A stretch of DNA of 61,787 nucleotides from Lachnospiraceae bacterium (GTDB lineage: Bacteria; Bacillota; Clostridia; Lachnospirales; Lachnospiraceae): the NCBI GenBank assembly GCA_021199235.1, contig JAJQIL010000100.1:1-61787 (forward strand), in the 5' to 3' direction. Below, in pieces: positions 4,751-59,871 of the stretch (the first letter of the stretch is position 1; every line of letters starts with the position of its first letter). A program made the position numbers and the translations under genes. The notes under the pieces are model-generated. The model saw nothing but the letters and a program-made list of their open reading frames with translations, was not told the DNA's origin and searched no databases.

Positions 4751-5248
4751 ATGAAGTGCAATGAAGCCAGGCGCATGGTAGTGCCTTTTGTAAAAAAAGA
4801 ACTGTCAGAGCGGGAGATGGAGCGCTTTCTTGCACACGTGGAATCCTGTCCGGACTGCATGGATGAACTGGATTTTTATTTTATGGTTTACAATGCCCTG
4901 GACGTCATGGATTCCGGGGAGCGCCATGAATATGATTTCAAAAAAATGCTGGAAGAGGAGATGCGTGCCTCCCGACATGCCGTCTGGAAAAGAAAAGCGG
5001 CGAATGCCTCACGCTTTGTGCTGCTGTTTTCTGCTGAAGTGCTGCTGCTTTTGTGTCTGTTTGTTGGGGTGCGGATGAAACAGGGGGCGGTCGGAGACAA
5101 CATTTTTGAGCGGGCGCTTCTGCGCATGCACATAGAGCAGATGTATTCCGCGGAGGATGCTTTGTCGGAAACGGAGACTACAGCAGGAAATGCGCTTAGT
5201 GAGACGGATACAGGCGTGACAGGAGGAGAACAGAATGCCGGAGAATAA
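4751..5248 (+). CDS. Zinc-finger anti-sigma-like membrane protein
   Basis: This 165-aa protein starts with a putative zf-HC2 zinc finger (C3, H29, C33, C36; HVESCPDC). A cytoplasmic segment, one membrane helix at about 89-108 (LLFSAEVLLLLCLFVGV) and a short Ser/Thr-rich outer tail follow. This is the architecture of anti-sigma factors that hold ECF sigma factors at the membrane. No sigma factor gene is adjacent, so the partner is unknown. ATG 4751 follows AGAAGG, 14 bp after the VanX-like gene, and the end overlaps polA by 14 nt, so the three are probably cotranscribed. Confidence 0.65.
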   Translation: MKCNEARRMVVPFVKKELSEREMERFLAHVESCPDCMDELDFYFMVYNALDVMDSGERHEYDFKKMLEEEMRASRHAVWKRKAANASRFVLLFSAEVLLLLCLFVGVRMKQGAVGDNIFERALLRMHIEQMYSAEDALSETETTAGNALSETDTGVTGGEQNAGE

Positions 5249-49695: not shown

Positions 49696-50853
49696 ATGAA
49701 AACAAAAAAAATGCTGAGCATGACCATGGCACTGAGCGTAGCAGCCACATCCGCATTTGCAGGCGTGACGGCGTTCGCTGAGGAAGAAGAGGATTACGTC
49801 ATTAAAGTCGGCGTCATCTGCGCGATGACCGGCGGCTCCGCAATCTACGGCGAGGGCGCACAGAACGCGATCGATATGGCAGTGGAAGAGATCAATGCTT
49901 CCGGTTCGGAATATACCATTGAGATCCTGAATGGCGGTAACGTCGCCGACGACGCGAAGGACGCGACAGAGGCAGTCAACGCGTACAACTCCTTGATGGC
50001 GGAGAGCCCGGAAGCAGTTGTTGGTTCCTTCTTCTCCACACCGACCCTGGCCATGGCGGAGCTGGCAGCGGACGACGGTATGCTTCTGCTGGCGACCGGC
50101 GCGACCAACGTCGATGTAACGCTTAAGGGCGACACCATTTTCCGTAACTGCTTCATCGACCCGTTCCAGGGCGAGATGGCGGCACAGTTCGCAAGCGAGC
50201 AGGGATACACCTCCGCATATGTTATCTATGCAAAGGACGATGATTATTCGAACGGCCTGAAGGATGCGTTTGTAGAGAGTGCAGAAGCACTTGGCATCGA
50301 GGTGCTGGGCGTTGCGGAATGCACGACGACCGATACTGACTTCACGGCACAGGCGACCAACGCGGTAGCGTCCGGCGCGGACTTCGTATTCTATCCGTAC
50401 TTCCTGGATACCGTTCCGCTTCTGGTACAGTAGGTAAGAGACGCCGGATTTGAGGGCGCAATCATGGGCGGCGACGGCTGGGACGGCGCTGACACCACAG
50501 GATATGAAGACTACTTCGACAACTGCTATTTCACAAACCACTATTCATCGGAGGATACGTCGGAATCCGTACAGAACTTCGTGACCAAGTACACGGAAGC
50601 TTACGGCACAGACAGCCTGAACGCATGCGCGGCTCTGTATTACGATGCAATGTACATGCTGCTGCAGGCTGCGGAAGACGGCGGCGGATCTGACACGGCA
50701 TCTCTGGTGGCAGGCATGACCGAGATGGAATTCAGCGGCGTAGCCGGCGACATCTATCTGGATGAGAACGGCGACGCGATCAAGCCGGTGGTTGTAAACA
50801 CCTATGAAGACGGCCAGATCAAGTGGCTGGAGACCATTCAGCCGTCCGAATAA
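49696..50853 (+). pseudogene. livK: Branched-chain-type ABC substrate-binding protein with in-frame TAG
   Basis: A periplasmic-binding-fold protein (type I, LivK-like): signal peptide MLSMTMALSVAATSAFAGVTAFA, IKVGVICAMTGGSAIYGEGAQNAIDMA, and FRNCFIDPFQGEMAAQFA. Codon 246 (50431-50433) is TAG, yet the same frame continues without other damage to 50853 (VRDAGFEGAIMGGDGWDG to the end). Restoring it gives 385 codons, a normal length. A CAG-to-TAG change explains it, since the neighbouring codon is CAG. TAG ends several other genes here, so general recoding is unlikely. ATG 49696 follows AGAGGAGGACAATTATT. The lipobox Cys usual in Firmicutes is absent. Confidence 0.85.
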
Positions 50854-54488: not shown

Positions 54489-55130
54489 ATGAGTAAAAAA
54501 AATTACGCAATCTGCATCACCCGGACCTGCGGCTCCGGCGGCACCGAGATCGGCAAGATGCTCTCTGCTCAGCTTGGCATTGACCTGTACGACCGCAAGC
54601 TTCTGCGGCTGGCATCGGATGATTCCGGCATCAACGAAACGCTGTTTGCCAAAGCCGATCAGGACATGAAAAAGACCGTATTATATAAGGTAAGTAAATC
54701 CATCTACAACGGCGAGAAGATCCCGCCGGAGAGCGGCAACTTCCTTTCCGACCGCAGCCTGTTCGACTTTCAGGCAAGAGTCCTGAAAGGACTGCTGAAA
54801 AAAGAAAGCTTCGTCGTGCTCGGCCGCGCCGCGGATTTTGTCCTGCGTGAGGAAAAGAATGCGGTCAGCATTTTTCTGACCGCCTCACCGGAAGCCTGTT
54901 TTAAGCGCGAGCAGGAGATCATGCAGCTGGATGAGCTGGGCGTCAACCGTCATATCAAGAGCATCAACAGCTACCGAAGCGATTACTACAAATATCACAC
55001 CGGCCGGAAATGGAAGAATGTCGAGAATTACGATCTGGTGCTGAAGACCGATGTGCTCGGCTACCAGGGATGCGTGGATATGATCATTGATTATGTAGAG
55101 AAACGGCTGGGAATGTCCATACACTCGTGA
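54489..55130 (+). CDS. Cytidylate kinase-like family protein
   Basis: The 213-aa protein fits the cytidylate-kinase-2 type (P-loop-like) family: ICITRTCGSGGTEIGKMLSAQLGIDLYDRKLL, VVLGRAADFVL, and an NRHIKSINSYRSDYYKYHTGRKW lid-like segment. The nucleoside kinase activity of this family is mostly unproven. It is the last gene of the liv transcript, behind AGAGGAGCGTTTAC. The functional link to amino acid uptake is unclear. Confidence 0.8.
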   Translation: MSKKNYAICITRTCGSGGTEIGKMLSAQLGIDLYDRKLLRLASDDSGINETLFAKADQDMKKTVLYKVSKSIYNGEKIPPESGNFLSDRSLFDFQARVLKGLLKKESFVVLGRAADFVLREEKNAVSIFLTASPEACFKREQEIMQLDELGVNRHIKSINSYRSDYYKYHTGRKWKNVENYDLVLKTDVLGYQGCVDMIIDYVEKRLGMSIHS

Positions 55131-55159
55131 TTGCATTCTCAGACAATCAGAATTTTACA

Positions 55160-55232
55160 GGCTGCACTTTATTTCGAAACAGGCAGGCGTACGGAAGCGC
55201 ATGTTTTGAGATGGGTGCAGCCTCTATTTTTT
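55160..55232 (+). terminator. Terminator of the liv operon
   Basis: GGCTGCAC (55160-55167) pairs with GTGCAGCC (55215-55222), followed by TCTATTTTTTC. The loop is long (47 nt) but the position fits. Confidence 0.6.
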
Positions 55233-55262
55233 CTCCCTAAGTACGGTACTCTGCCCATCTCG

Positions 55263-55318
55263 TAATAAATTCGTGGTCAGGCTCTGCGGCTGACATCCTG
55301 TAATAAATTAATGGTCAG
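55263..55318 (+). repeat. Pair of 18-bp direct repeats with TGGTCAG
   Basis: TAATAAATTCGTGGTCAG (55263-55280) and TAATAAATTAATGGTCAG (55301-55318) differ at two positions and start 38 bp apart. The core (T)CGTGGTCA recurs near the recombinase gene at 55741, 55818 (inverted) and 57249, so these may be recombinase arm-binding sites. Confidence 0.6.
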
Positions 55319-55440
55319 CTCCTGTCATCTCTATCACTTCAAGCAGAACATTGCAGAAATATTTTTCTGTTGCGGAAGGCCGTAAAAACAGATAAAATCA
55401 AGATTTGAACACTGACAATGGATTAGGCCTTTCAGTATAC

Positions 55441-55480
55441 GGAAAATAAAATAACGGGAAAATAAAATAACGGGAAAACA
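55441..55480 (+). repeat. 16-bp tandem repeat
   Basis: GGAAAATAAAATAACG occurs twice head to tail (55441-55456, 55457-55472), followed by a partial third unit. The surrounding 55233-55554 has no gene. GCCG-TTCC/GGAA-CGGC pairing just after it (about 55487-55513) makes a small hairpin. Confidence 0.75.
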
Positions 55481-55554
55481 AAAACAGCCGTTCCTGCAAA
55501 ATCGGAAGCGGCATTTAAAAAGAATATGATGTGGTTTTGGGCTTGTCAGCCTCT

Positions 55555-55576
55555 GGAATAGTCCGAAAGTATACTA
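55555..55576 (+). repeat. Left 22-bp inverted repeat
   Basis: Starts GGAATAGTCCGAAAG and ends TATACTA. The reverse complement is at 57334-57355 with a single G/A difference. The region from here to 55867 contains no gene, only repeats and a probable leader of the recombinase. Confidence 0.85.
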
Positions 55577-55740
55577 CTAAAGGATACGGCTTTCCGGACG
55601 AAAATCCATGCATCCAAGCCTATTTTGTTCCTCGACAGGCCAAATTCTACATCATAATGGGTTCTCTGTCAAGATAAACATAGAAAATCCCTTGATTTTC
55701 CGTCTGCCGGATGGGATAAAATCGGAAGAAAACTAATCAC

Positions 55741-55765
55741 CAGTGGTCAAATTCGTGGTCAGAAA
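55741..55765 (+). repeat. 25-bp direct repeat, left copy
   Basis: CAGTGGTCAAATTCGTGGTC followed by AGAAA contains two tandem GTGGTC units. The right copy at 57249 differs at two positions. A third, inverted copy of ATTCGTGGTCAAATATTA lies at 55818-55835, in the recombinase leader. Confidence 0.8.
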
Positions 55766-55867
55766 TTGGCCGCTTATTACTTTTCTGGAATCCTCATGTA
55801 CCGCCCGTGATTCTTCGTAATATTTGACCACGAATCATGACAGGTTATGGAAAGCGAGGATTTTCAC

Positions 55868-57115
55868 GTGGGTAGACTGGGAGAGAACATTCATAAAAGG
55901 AAAGATGGCCGCTGGGAAGCGCGGGTCGTATTTGGCGATCCGATCTGCGGCAGGACAAGGTATAAGTATCTATATGGGCGCAGTTATCAGGAAGCTAAAG
56001 CAAAGAAAAAAGCATTTCTCAGGGGTCTTGATGCCCTGCAGGCCGCTGCAGCGTGTAAAGAAACTGCAGTCATCTGTGATGCTGATCCGGCGTTCCTGAA
56101 TCATGTTGAGCCGCTGGATATTCCGGAGGAACCGGTTGTTTCTGCTGCATCCTCTGCTCCTGCTCCGCTCGCTCCAACTGTTTGTTTTTCCGATGTTGCG
56201 GAAAAATGGCTGGCTTCTAAGAAACTGGCGATCAAGGAGTCGTCCTATGCATTTTATTCCGTGATGATCACAAACCATCTTCTTCCACGGTTTGGAGGTT
56301 TTGACATTAAGGATGTAGATTACGATCAGATTGCGTCATTTCTGTCTGATGAAAAACAGCATGGACGTCTGAGAGACCAGGGTCCCCTTTCCGATAAAAC
56401 ACTGTCTGAGCTCAAATCCATTCTGTACCGGATTCTCCGGTTTGGAAAGTCCCGGCATTATATCAGTGAAGTCCCTGAATCCATACCAATTACCGTGAAG
56501 AAGACACCGATTCCGGTGTTTTCCGAGTCGGAGCAGGTCTGTATGGAAAAGCAGGGACGGCAGGAAGACACCGCTTTTTCTGTAGGTATTCTTTTTACTG
56601 CGTATACCGGGATTCGTGTGGGCGAGATCTGCGCCCTGAAATGGTCTGATTTTGACTGGGAAAACGGTACGGTCTCGATCAGTAAAACCGTGAACCGCGT
56701 CAGGGACACGGACAGCGAATCCGGAGCCCGGACTCATGTAGTGATCGGACCGCCAAAGACCGACAGTTCAAATCGTACCATACCAATCCCTGAAAGTGTT
56801 TTGCCCTATTTTAAGGCTCACGCCGGTGAATCTGCAAATTATGTACTTACTGGCAGTAAAAAATTCATGGAGCCGCGTGTCTGCCGCTCCCGTTTTGCCC
56901 GTTTTCTGAAGAGGGCGGGAATAAAACATCATACATTCCATACTTTGCGCCATACCTATGCGACAAACTGTGTTGCTGAGGGTATGGACATCAAATCACT
57001 CAGTGAGATTCTGGGGCATTCCGATGTGTCTATCACGCTTGCACGGTACGTACATCCATCTCTGGACACAAAAAAAGCGCAGGTAAACAAGCTGAAAACA
57101 TTCGCTAACCGTTAA
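55868..57115 (+). CDS. Tyrosine recombinase / phage-type integrase
   Basis: The 415-aa protein has an AP2-like/arm-binding N-terminus (GENIHKRKDGRWEARVVFG), a SAM-like core-binding domain (about 105-200) and a catalytic domain with R250 (TGIRVGE), H358 and R361 (HTLRHT), H384 (GHSD) and Y394 (ARYVHPS), all intact. It should cut and rejoin DNA through a 3'-phosphotyrosine. I chose GTG 55868 (MGRLGENIHKRK), 8 nt after GAGG; ATG 55847 would add 7 residues with a poor ribosome site. No excisionase, replication or conjugation genes are seen. The TGGTCA repeats around it are candidate arm sites. Confidence 0.9.
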   Translation: MGRLGENIHKRKDGRWEARVVFGDPICGRTRYKYLYGRSYQEAKAKKKAFLRGLDALQAAAACKETAVICDADPAFLNHVEPLDIPEEPVVSAASSAPAPLAPTVCFSDVAEKWLASKKLAIKESSYAFYSVMITNHLLPRFGGFDIKDVDYDQIASFLSDEKQHGRLRDQGPLSDKTLSELKSILYRILRFGKSRHYISEVPESIPITVKKTPIPVFSESEQVCMEKQGRQEDTAFSVGILFTAYTGIRVGEICALKWSDFDWENGTVSISKTVNRVRDTDSESGARTHVVIGPPKTDSSNRTIPIPESVLPYFKAHAGESANYVLTGSKKFMEPRVCRSRFARFLKRAGIKHHTFHTLRHTYATNCVAEGMDIKSLSEILGHSDVSITLARYVHPSLDTKKAQVNKLKTFANR

Positions 57116-57248
57116 GCGCTCTGCCTGCAGAGTTCTCATCTCTGTTCACAATCTCATAATTCATTCCTGTATTGCTGATGTTCTGCTGATGATTCCGACG
57201 GCGGAGCATGGGCTTTTTGTGCTGCTTACAAATAAAAAAGACCATCGT

Positions 57249-57273
57249 CAGTGGTCAAAATCGTGGTCGGAAA
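57249..57273 (+). repeat. 25-bp direct repeat, right copy
   Basis: CAGTGGTCAAAATCGTGGTC followed by GGAAA, downstream of the recombinase gene. It pairs in sequence with 55741-55765 in the same orientation. Confidence 0.8.
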
Positions 57274-57333
57274 AAACGGAATCCAGGCAAAAAGCCTGTA
57301 AATAAGGGAATCTCCGGCGGGGTTATCCGCAAT

Positions 57334-57355
57334 TAGTATACTTTCGGATTATTCC
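57334..57355 (-). repeat. Right 22-bp inverted repeat
   Basis: Reverse complement of 55555-55576 with one mismatch. It lies 350 bp upstream of the CapD-type gene. Confidence 0.85.
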
Positions 57356-57705
57356 GGCGCGTACCCCTTACAGGGTGTCCTCTGCCCTGACTTTCCGGCG
57401 CGGATGCCATATGCCCACTATTGTACATCAAAAAATCCTCGCTGCATAGGAGCAACTTCATATACACATGAACCTGTAACTGAATACCGGCTGGGGCGTA
57501 AGTCATCAGTTGGTTCTTCTTTTGTAAAAAATCCGGATGATGGAAGTGAGTCGCTCAGCCGCCGCGGACAGTCCGGACGTCATAGTGAAACCATGAACCG
57601 CGCGAAAGCAGGGCGGCATGGCGAAGCTATACCATAAATGCATTGCAGCAGTAACGAGAAAAAACGAAAGGGCCGGGACTTCATACCGGCTGGATAAAAC
57701 AGAGT
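57356..57705 (+). other. 350-bp gap upstream of the CapD-type gene
   Basis: No gene is supported. A 77-codon frame at 57404-57637 lacks a ribosome site and family resemblance. No clear sigma-A promoter for the downstream gene is seen, which leaves open that its promoter lies inside the recombinase segment. Confidence 0.4.
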
Positions 57706-59871
57706 ATGAAAATGAAATTTCATCATTGGAAAGTGATTGCCGTATGTCTGATGCTCTATGACATCGTTGCCATCATTTTTTCTTATTTCTTCGGGCTGTG
57801 GCTCCGGTTTGACTTTCAGTATTCAGGAATCCCAACGGAATACATGTCGGCATTCGTCCGCTTCCTTCCCTGGTATCTGATCCTGACGGTGGCTTTCTTC
57901 TGGTACATGCAGATGTACCGCAGCATCTGGCGCTTTGCCGGGGTGCATGAGCTGGTGCGGTACGGGGCGGCTTCCCTGATCGCGTCCATCGCCCACAGCA
58001 TACTGATCACAGTGATCTTCAGACGGATGCCCTTTTCCTATTATATCGTGGGCGCCGTCATGCAGCTGATTCTGGTCGTCGGTATCCGCTTTTCCTACCG
58101 TTTTTACACTGAGGCCTTCCCCAAAAAAGAAACCGCGGAGGGCAACACAGGCACCGAGCGGGTCATGATCATCGGCGCGGGCGCGGCCGGCAGGAACGTC
58201 GTGCGGGAGCTACTCCGCTCGGAGAAGATGAACTGCACGCCCTGCTGCATCATCGACGACAACTCGAACAAATGGAACCGTTTCATCGACGGTGTGCCGG
58301 TAGTCGGCGGCAGGGACAGCATCCTTGAAAACGCGGAGAAATACCACGTAAACCAGATCTACTTCTGCATCCCAACAGCCACCGCAAAGGACAAAAAGGC
58401 GATCCTCGATATCTGCAAGGAGACCGGCTGCCGCCTGAAGAGCCTGCCGGGTATCTACCAGCTTGCTAATGATGAGGTACTTGTCAGCAAGCTGAAATCC
58501 GTAGCAGTCGAAGACCTGCTCGGCCGGGAGCCGATCCGGGTCGATATGGAAGGCATCTACCAGTACATACAGGGCAAGACCATCCTCGTCACCGGGGGCG
58601 GCGGTTCCATCGGCAGCGAGCTTTGCCGTCAGATCGCCGGGCATCAGCCGAAAAAGCTCATCATCTTCGACATCTACGAGAACACCACCTACGCCATCGA
58701 GCTGGAGCTGCGGGAGAAATACCCCGACCTCGACCTGACCGTGCTGATCGGCTCCGTGCGCGACAGCCGCAGGATCAACCAGGTGTTTGAACTGTACTAC
58801 CCCGACATCGTCTACCATGCGGCAGCCCACAAGCACGTGCCGCTGATGGAATACAGCCCGAACGAGGCCATCAAGAACAACGTCATCGGCACCTACAAGA
58901 CCGCGTACGCCGCGCTTACGCACGGCACGCAGCGTTTCGTGCTGATCAGCACCGACAAGGCCGTCAACCCGACCAACATCATGGGCGCGTCCAAACGCCT
59001 CTGCGAGATGGTCATCCAGAGCATGGACGCCGTCAGCAAGAGCGGACGCATCGACCTGCTGCCCTTCGTGCACGCGCACAAGGACAAGGTGATCGACGGG
59101 CAGAAAGCGCTGGATCCGGTCGACCATATGGCAGTGTATGGCGGCGACAACAAGGATGGCTGTGTACAGGACAGCAGAGATGAACAGCAATGTGGGAATA
59201 CGCGGGCAGAAAGTTTCGCGCATGAAAACAGGAATGCGCTGGCGGAAAGTTTCGCGCACGAAAACAGGAATACGCGGGCGGAAAGCTCCTCGCATGAAAA
59301 GCTGAAGATCGAGAGCGTCAAGAATAAGGAGCGCACCGGCACCCAGTTCGTCGCGGTCCGTTTCGGCAACGTCCTCGGCAGCAATGGTTCCGTCATCCCG
59401 CGATTCCAGAAGCAGATTGAAGCGGGCGGGCCGGTCACCGTGACCCATCCGGATATCACAAGATATTTCATGACCATTCCCGAGGCGGTCAGCCTCGTCC
59501 TGCAGGCCGGCACCTATGCCTGGGGCGGCGAGATCTTCGTCCTCGACATGGGCGAGCCGGTCAAGATCGACACCCTCGCCAGAAATCTCATACAGCTTTC
59601 CGGCTACAAGCCTGATGAGGATATATCTGTGCAATATACAGGTTTGCGGCCTGGTGAGAAATTGTATGAGGAAAAATTAATGGCAGAGGAGGGCATCAAA
59701 AAGACCGACAACGAGCTCATCTACATTGGCAAGCCGATCCCCTTCGAGGTGGAAGAATTTTTAAAGCAGCTCGAAGAGCTGGCAAACGCAAGCTATGAAA
59801 ACGACGCCGATATCGTAAAGATGGTCGAAAAAATCGTGCCGACCTTCCATCCGGTGGGAGAGAAGCCGTAA
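57706..59871 (+). CDS. CapD-like nucleoside-diphosphate-sugar epimerase/dehydratase (membrane)
   Basis: Four N-terminal membrane helices (about residues 10-125) precede a CoA-binding/Rossmann-like region (VMIIGAGAAGRNVVRELL) and an extended SDR domain. The latter has ILVTGGGGSIGSELCRQI (near 292), HAAAHKHVPLMEYSP, and STDKAVNPTNIMGASKR. Such proteins modify UDP-GlcNAc-type sugars at the start of capsule or glycan synthesis. At 721 aa it is about 100 longer than usual because of an insertion at about 450-550 containing three 12-aa repeats. ATG 57706 has a weak ribosome site. It may open a polysaccharide locus, but no further glycan gene is in the window. Confidence 0.9.
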   Translation: MKMKFHHWKVIAVCLMLYDIVAIIFSYFFGLWLRFDFQYSGIPTEYMSAFVRFLPWYLILTVAFFWYMQMYRSIWRFAGVHELVRYGAASLIASIAHSILITVIFRRMPFSYYIVGAVMQLILVVGIRFSYRFYTEAFPKKETAEGNTGTERVMIIGAGAAGRNVVRELLRSEKMNCTPCCIIDDNSNKWNRFIDGVPVVGGRDSILENAEKYHVNQIYFCIPTATAKDKKAILDICKETGCRLKSLPGIYQLANDEVLVSKLKSVAVEDLLGREPIRVDMEGIYQYIQGKTILVTGGGGSIGSELCRQIAGHQPKKLIIFDIYENTTYAIELELREKYPDLDLTVLIGSVRDSRRINQVFELYYPDIVYHAAAHKHVPLMEYSPNEAIKNNVIGTYKTAYAALTHGTQRFVLISTDKAVNPTNIMGASKRLCEMVIQSMDAVSKSGRIDLLPFVHAHKDKVIDGQKALDPVDHMAVYGGDNKDGCVQDSRDEQQCGNTRAESFAHENRNALAESFAHENRNTRAESSSHEKLKIESVKNKERTGTQFVAVRFGNVLGSNGSVIPRFQKQIEAGGPVTVTHPDITRYFMTIPEAVSLVLQAGTYAWGGEIFVLDMGEPVKIDTLARNLIQLSGYKPDEDISVQYTGLRPGEKLYEEKLMAEEGIKKTDNELIYIGKPIPFEVEEFLKQLEELANASYENDADIVKMVEKIVPTFHPVGEKP
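59195..59302 (+). repeat. Three 36-bp in-frame repeats inside the CapD-type gene
   Basis: Units begin at 59195, 59231 and 59267, encoding GNTRAESFAHEN, RNALAESFAHEN and RNTRAESSSHEK (about residues 497-532). They fall between the NTP-sugar domain's MIQSMDAV and AVRFGNVLGS segments. Copy number could vary by slippage without shifting the frame. Confidence 0.85.

Follow-up and report, generated by a model that had tools for sequence, protein, structure and literature searches.

A probable self-inverting switch of the tyrosine-recombinase type ahead of a surface glycan gene in a Lachnospiraceae bacterium

Layout of the locus

The window, meaning the whole 61,787-nucleotide stretch of DNA analysed here (contig C146, part of a 3.47-Mb draft genome), contains a repeat-bounded unit of 1.8 kb that holds a recombinase gene and is followed by a putative operon leader and a CapD-type glycan gene. 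The features of this region are:

55555..55576, + strand: left 22-bp inverted repeat, as described in an earlier note on this sequence (repeat search)
55562..57348, no strand: putative invertible segment, core-to-core, with the recombinase gene and a putative outward promoter (layout common to relatives)
55562..55584, + strand: left 23-bp core site, TCCGAAAGT-ATACT-ACTAAAGGA (9-5-9), spacer at 55571-55575 (site comparison)
55644..55674, - strand: putative promoter TTGACA-17-TAGAAT (11 of 12 consensus positions), directed outward to the left across the left core site
55736..55765, + strand: left member of a TGGTCA direct-repeat pair, probable arm-type binding sites (kept in relatives)
55868..57115, + strand: tyrosine recombinase gene, 415 aa from GTG (Pfam Phage_integrase, 1.1e-25; Phage_int_SAM_3, 6.7e-10)
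57244..57273, + strand: TGGTCA-type repeat matching the left one (repeat search)
57326..57348, - strand: right core site, inverted, TCCGAAAGT-ATACT-AATTGCGGA on the minus strand, spacer at 57335-57339 (whole-site identity)
57334..57355, - strand: right 22-bp inverted repeat, as described in the earlier note (repeat search)
57558..57630, + strand: conserved operon leader RNA ending in GCATGGCGAAGCTAT, sub-threshold match to RAGATH-28 (leader comparison, Rfam)
57706..59871, + strand: CapD-type nucleotide-sugar dehydratase gene (Polysacc_synt_2), the probable target (Pfam)

The earlier note had described inverted repeats on either side of the recombinase, and these were borne out, with 21 of 22 positions identical and a repeat-pair score (arms at least 1 kb apart) of 19, which none of 300 shuffles equalled, the shuffle maximum being 16. 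The open reading frame listing agrees with its statement that the unit contains only the recombinase, no other sizeable gene being present. The direct repeats that it placed on both sides of the gene are also real, measuring 30 nt at 87% (55736-55765 and 57244-57273), and the TGGTCA motifs that it saw nearby are enriched, with six copies in 2.2 kb, a density of 2.7 per kb compared with 0.47 per kb in the rest of the window. On sequence grounds, the 22-bp repeats are the outer parts of two predicted 23-bp crossover sites with a 9-5-9 layout, which carry the spacer ATACT in inverted orientation on both sides and agree at 19 of 23 positions, their inner arms being unequal. The right site was found by whole-site identity, its arms falling under the cut of the spacer-blind search described below.

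The recombinase

The start of the recombinase gene is most likely the GTG at 55868 and not the longer open reading frame from 55847, because the homologues begin with MGR(R/L/P)GEN. Tyrosine recombinases share the catalytic set R-K-H-R-H/W-Y, to which R250, K297, H358, R361, H384 and Y394 were assigned, and these residues are invariant in all 18 sequences compared. By its Pfam matches and these residues the protein belongs to the tyrosine family, with a predicted intact active site, and is not of the serine type. Its best sequence matches among solved structures, at about 1e-13, are the Int proteins 6en0, 6emy and 6emz, which we take to be Int of Tn1549. The structure prediction is weak (mean pLDDT 65, pTM 0.39); in this weak model the N-terminal 66 residues form strands and a helix, and helices lie where a core-binding domain is expected.

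A second, broken copy of the recombinase lies elsewhere in the window genome (G000:C110, L015), together with one core site and a promoter motif. Two open recombinase genes of the same group in other genomes, L052 (G018:C66) and L054 (G014:C103), have no core site or promoter motif that was found adjoining them, and are possibly stand-alone copies acting in trans.

Core sites and spacers in same-genus elements

Recombinase matches at E values up to 1e-30 were found in 29 of 47 same-genus genomes, the window genome included. Inverted repeats of varying sequence lie near many of these recombinases and form near-palindromes of 9-5-9 layout, roughly TCCYTTAGT-N5-ACTAARGGA. The spacers were examined blindly in 45 elements anchored on the promoter motif, the best left and right sites being chosen by their arms alone with a cut of 14 of 18 for each. 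In every one of the 26 elements passing the cut the two spacers were identical and inverted, and in none of these were they direct; the remaining 19 missed the cut or lacked a right side. The 26 elements carry 19 distinct spacers, and permutation gave a mean of 1.68 agreements, none of 20,000 permutations reaching 26. The rows are not independent, as L136 and L143 are close kin, as are L134, L135, L142 and L144. The window element and L049 have equal-spacer pairs under whole-site identity, bringing the paired elements to 28, of which 11 carry a recombinase gene and 17 do not; since that search demanded equal spacers, only the 26 spacer-blind elements count as a test. Directly repeated attachment sites, as expected of a phage or integrative and conjugative element, were sought among the same 26 site pairs and none shares its spacer in direct orientation. 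With tyrosine recombinases, inverted core sites yield inversion and not excision.

The imperfect match of the window sites raises the possibility that this is a former switch which has become fixed in the window genome, inversion being real in relatives only. The 19 of 23 agreement and the unequal inner arms would fit such a history, as would the nearest relative, G010, in which neither recombinase copy (L047, L048) has a partner site that was found. Against it, ATACT is identical on both sides of the window segment, although the nearest relative has AAAGT as the spacer of its left site; the recombinase is unbroken and has the catalytic residues; and other pairs agreeing at 18 to 20 of 23 positions in the spacer-blind search also keep equal spacers. 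A fixed switch is considered unlikely on balance, and is the most serious of the alternatives weighed here.

Outward promoter and mini-switches

The putative outward promoter belongs to a motif with 45 copies in 14 of 47 same-genus genomes, the reversed-pattern control giving none. Every listed match is 31 nt long, corresponding to a 17-bp spacer, though up to 21 bp was allowed; the pattern was derived from an alignment of relatives, so that conservation by descent contributes to this uniformity. Nineteen of the 45 copies adjoin a recombinase gene or fragment and 26 do not, and 17 of these 26 recombinase-free copies are mini-switches with paired sites 356-464 bp apart. The window genome has the motif in two places only, that in the window and that beside the broken recombinase copy. 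Counting against the switch reading, another genome, G009, contains three perfect mini-switches, although its sole detected recombinase copy is broken in two frames.

Glycan operons and the orientation of the promoter

The earlier note had remarked that the CapD gene lacks a visible promoter of its own. This holds in a consensus scan of 55100-57720, in which no + strand sigma-70-like promoter was found at 57161-57720, the scan as a whole being no richer than shuffles (3 sites against a mean of 3.9). In the orientation present in the window, the putative promoter points away from the CapD operon, which corresponds to an OFF state. The stretch from the recombinase stop to CapD gave no terminator-like site on the + strand, and the OFF state may therefore be leaky. 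CapD is the only downstream glycan gene visible, the contig ending soon after it.

Orientation in the relatives was scored against five markers, namely a helicase, a sugar transferase, CapD, UDP-glucose dehydrogenase and a protein that is presumably mannose-phosphate guanylyltransferase-like; the markers were picked after the neighbourhoods had been viewed, and the resulting ON/OFF table is thus not blind to gene choice. All marker matches listed, up to five or six per side, read away from the segment. The 28 paired-site elements comprise 22 OFF, 4 ON and 2 without a marker, and the 17 elements without paired sites comprise 10 ON, none OFF and 7 without a marker. Three of those 10 ON elements are cut by a contig end, leaving seven that are assessable, and the OFF:ON ratio of 22:4 among paired elements against 0:7 among assessable unpaired ones gives a Fisher p of 7.7e-5. 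With all seven assessable unpaired elements ON and the paired ones mostly OFF, it is in the elements apparently incapable of flipping that the promoter is directed at the operon.

The helicase is the nearest marker in 26 of 36 marker-bearing elements, and the copy tested has six HA domains (PF03457); Bac_transf, CapD or UDP-glucose dehydrogenase genes come after it or replace it. At the window locus the helicase gene is absent and CapD comes first. An example of the helicase is the open reading frame L151:6783-9533, similar ones occurring at many switch loci. Within the helicase gene at L143 an antisense match to GA-cis RNA was seen (5059-5141, minus strand, 39.8 bits against a cut-off of 34.7), perhaps by chance.

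The OFF assignment could be mistaken if the segment inverts and the window shows its ON state, with transcription of the recombinase gene running on across the right site to reach CapD, and with the outward promoter serving something else. The recombinase does point at CapD with no + strand terminator-like site found between them, and in 9 of the 11 paired elements that carry a recombinase the gene is likewise directed towards the operon. However, the 17 mini-switches, which are too small to hold a recombinase gene, retain the promoter, and 15 of the 17 adjoin a glycan marker gene; in all seven assessable unpaired elements with a marker the outward promoter faces that marker; and the promoter motif is conserved 45 times. 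An ON window is accordingly regarded as improbable.

Inversion between related species

The earlier note held that a single orientation in all relatives would speak against a switch. This is not what the relatives show: both orientations were found at two loci, each in two species and with the flanks swapped. One genome per species was used, so that these contrasts are between species, and the orientations were read from draft genomes, perhaps metagenome-assembled.

The first locus is shared by L053 (G018) and L055 (G014), whose flanks match with sides swapped and on the opposite strand. One flank matches at 93.5% over 4,672 bp, reaching the site. The other, compared over 5 kb, is broken into three matching stretches of 991 bp (95.6%), 164 bp (96.3%) and 61 bp (90.2%), with 3,583 bp at 95.6% farther out; its 164-bp piece abuts the site in L053 and lies about 120 bp from it in L055, making this breakpoint less clean. 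Comparison of same-side flanks gave no match, and the segment itself is collinear, with 97.0% identity over 1,445 bp plus 97.9% over 237 bp. The outer arm on the helicase side is TCCCTTAGT in both species and the opposite outer arm is TCCTTTAGT in both; that these arms stay with their flanks would be expected if exchange takes place within the sites. The second locus, L161 (G001) and L162 (G002), has a more distant recombinase, and its sides are swapped at 77.1% over 3,919 bp and 80.6% over 1,476 bp, the flank matches stopping no more than about 110 bp short of the sites; between them, the segment matches in the same sense at 74.9% over 1,507 bp.

Other syntenic pairs show a single orientation, on both flanks in L136/L143 and on the matching flank in L135/L142, L128/L151 and L048/L050. 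In L134/L144 one flank is swapped and the other resembles a different locus, a pattern that either inter-locus exchange or misassembly would give. Taken together, L134, L135, L142 and L144 represent two mini-switch loci in two species between which flanks have apparently been exchanged; three of them share the spacer AAGGC and the fourth has AAGAC.

It might be supposed that the orientation differences are assembly artefacts at repeats, given that the genomes are drafts and that the one-flank exchange of L134/L144 is what misjoining at a repeat could produce. This is highly improbable as a general account, since the flanks of L053/L055 and of L161/L162 match on both sides over kilobases, and the equality of spacers is independent of orientation. 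By its site-like inverted repeats, the occurrence of both orientations (between species) and a predicted internal outward promoter, the segment qualifies as a putative inverton.

Spread and origin

Enclosing inverted repeats (score at least 15) occur around 25 of 43 more distant relatives and around none of 10 weakly similar recombinases of the window genome, with 1 of 215 in the shuffle control. Of the 43 relatives, 14 are same-genus loci (34-38% identity); the remaining 29 (36-54%) come from other genera, in which 26 genomes are represented. An example of a site among the 43 is TGTCGTAGAGTACCATACTCTACGACA. Their neighbours, judged by eye, include glycan genes, genes for large surface proteins and pilus-like genes. 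In a scan of the family, 27 of 397 genomes, the window genome included, have a match at E values up to 1e-60. In the viral collection, repeats enclose 5 of 10 relatives of at least 32% identity and none of the 29 others, with which L216, a short 40% match, was grouped.

In the recombinase tree, all 42 rows labelled with enclosing repeats fall inside one 74-row set (99/92), which also holds 32 rows without the label, and the label needs 20 changes. Contig ends and the use of 1.5-kb flanks hide sites from this labelling, which accepts a weaker repeat (score 14) for L065 and treats L047 and L048, each having a single site, as lacking enclosing repeats. A phage origin was considered and rejected: 1,938 records of the phage collection match, all at under 60% identity, the best listed at about 35%. 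A plasmid origin was likewise rejected, the segment having no blastn match in 72,556 plasmid records.

The earlier note had offered, as its alternative to a switch, a minimal mobile element with terminal inverted repeats, in which the recombinase would move the segment and the repeats would be its ends, as in an insertion sequence. In keeping with this, the gene lies alone between inverted repeats and belongs to the integrase family, the relatives are found at various loci, and the nearest of them show no synteny with the window locus. For the gene upstream of the segment, homology with the three nearest relatives is lost at 55122-55160, so that the window glycan locus is not shared in place. 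This break, however, falls some 400 bp beyond the repeat, and G010, which has 55351-55839 in common with the window at a different locus, continues to match for about 200 bp after the left site; no precise empty site was found among the nearest relatives, in which the flanking synteny breaks before the segment. The inverted, identical spacers of all 26 spacer-blind elements further argue for inversion and not excision, two loci have been inverted in place, the plasmid records gave no match to the segment, and the outward promoter and the link to glycan operons would go unexplained. The inverted core sites and the position of the synteny break thus tell against the alternative, and a transposon is a very improbable explanation of the locus.

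Proposed operation of the switch

The segment at 55562-57348 is very probably a reversible, self-inverting phase switch of the tyrosine type for surface glycans, as judged from comparison of sequences. The suggestion of the earlier note that inversion of the whole segment controls the glycan operon is supported by the 26 of 26 inverted spacers and the two species pairs with swapped flanks, and also by the conserved outward promoter through one site and the orientation tied to glycan operons. The recombinase would bind both inverted core sites through its core-binding and catalytic domains, its N-terminal domain probably binding the TGGTCA repeats. Strand exchange at the identical 5-nt spacers would then flip the segment, with the recombinase gene included. 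The predicted sigma-70-type promoter near the left end would fire out of the segment across the left site. In the present orientation of the window this leads away from the CapD operon (OFF); after inversion it would lead into the leader RNA and the CapD operon (ON), presumably with both states arising within one population.

This type of recombinase probably also acts in trans on the small switch copies ahead of other glycan operons in relatives, as the site arms and promoter that they have in common suggest. A broader proposal would have a genus-wide network in which many small invertible promoters, lying ahead of separate glycan operons, are controlled in trans by a single self-inverting tyrosine recombinase or by a few of them, each switch being insulated from most others by its own 5-nt spacer and the identity of spacers within a pair being kept by recombination; the chances of this proposal being right appear evenly balanced. 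If such a network exists, switches sharing a spacer could exchange between loci, swapping operons between promoters.

Operon leader RNA

A motif near GGCATGGCGAAGCTAT, with up to 3 mismatches, was found in 31 of 38 operon leaders between the site and the first gene, and in the window leader it appears as GCATGGCGAAGCTAT at 57616-57630. In the form GNATGGCGAAGCTAT it occurs at 47 places in 16 of 47 same-genus genomes, the reversed control giving one match. The motif ends a hairpin, in which, counted on a motif-centred alignment, one inner-stem pair shows compensatory change (T-A in 12, C-G in 10 and T-G in 6 of 31 leaders); the weak spots are one inner position that pairs in 8 of 31 and two outer ones that pair in 19 of 31. 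Assignment to RAGATH-28 as a named family was rejected, the match being full-length yet scoring 24.4 bits in the window and at best 36.4 in the genus, against a cut-off of 45.3. The leader would tie the RAGATH-28 RNA family to phase-variable glycan operons.

The window genome encodes one protein (L153, G000:C128:3181-3669) that scores over the curated cut-off for the LoaP antiterminator; in the control, 13 of 14 genomes gave matches below the cut-off and none above it. In Bacillus velezensis, LoaP works via a leader hairpin, according to passages of PMC12691694. It may be speculated that LoaP serves the leader-bearing operons, which would make L153 a candidate partner of the leader RNA.

Comparison with known systems

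In the Salmonella flagellar switch, a promoter on the H-segment drives genes outside the segment. The hin gene lies inside its own invertible segment (in passages of PMC5903667) and Hin is a serine recombinase (in passages of PMC11868660). The window locus resembles this system in having the recombinase gene within its own segment and a putative segment promoter driving outside genes, and differs in that Hin is of the serine type and switches flagellin genes, whereas the window has a tyrosine recombinase of the phage-integrase type, glycan operons and, in relatives, gene-free copies of the switch.

Phase-variable capsules are best known in Bacteroides. There, the serine-type Mpi of Bacteroides fragilis inverts at least thirteen regions, with seven polysaccharide loci, as passages of PMC5903667 describe. 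The likeness lies in many dispersed invertible promoters ahead of polysaccharide operons, which here are found in the relatives, the window genome having only two motif places; in contrast to the serine-type Mpi, the window recombinase is of the tyrosine type and lies inside one switch, in another phylum, and its action in trans is putative.

The same source in part describes RecV of Clostridioides difficile, a tyrosine recombinase that inverts several dispersed switches, and states that in strain R20291 Cdi7 alone among the switches adjoins a recombinase gene, Cdi7 being unaffected by RecV (PMC5903667). RecV shares with the window family the tyrosine type, multiple dispersed switches and membership of the Clostridia, and differs in this respect and in its named targets, which are flagella, cwpV and others in place of helicase-led glycan operons. 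In Providencia stuartii, a putative 844-bp invertible segment encloses a recombinase gene in a fimbrial context (passages of PMC5903667), which is similar in enclosing the gene and different in being a single putative locus for fimbriae.

Possible kin are inverton group 139 with invertase group 35 of gut Clostridia, which passages of PMC11892184 give as 33 invertons, 32 of them from the class Clostridia, linked to tyrosine-type recombinase genes that intersect them or lie within 5 kb; two examples have about 206 and 228 bp between the repeats. These passages mention neither a helicase nor a recombinase gene located inside a segment. Kinship of group 139 with the window switch, compared by description only, could lower the novelty of the present finding. 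Its predicted sites, orientation and promoter would make the window switch an inverton that is Hin-like in holding its recombinase, Mpi-like in the dispersed glycan operons of its relatives, and of the tyrosine type; no printed description of such a combination was found in the open-licence PMC literature.

A genus of Clostridiales seems to have built capsule-switch logic from a phage-type integrase inside its own switch. Given the many copies in relatives, a whole wardrobe of surface coats may be under such switches, and the enclosing repeats around relatives in other genera of the family indicate that they may be a main source of surface variation there. With core sites, spacers and promoter defined to the base, switch states should be readable from any long-read metagenome, and the 5-nt spacers would offer a natural set of insulated recombination sites.

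Further observations in the window

The CapD gene contains three tandem 36-nt repeats of 12 codons each (59195-59302) between its two dehydratase-domain matches. Farther upstream, at 49696-50853, a gene is apparently split into two open reading frames in different frames; it precedes what appears by eye to be a branched-chain amino-acid transporter operon.
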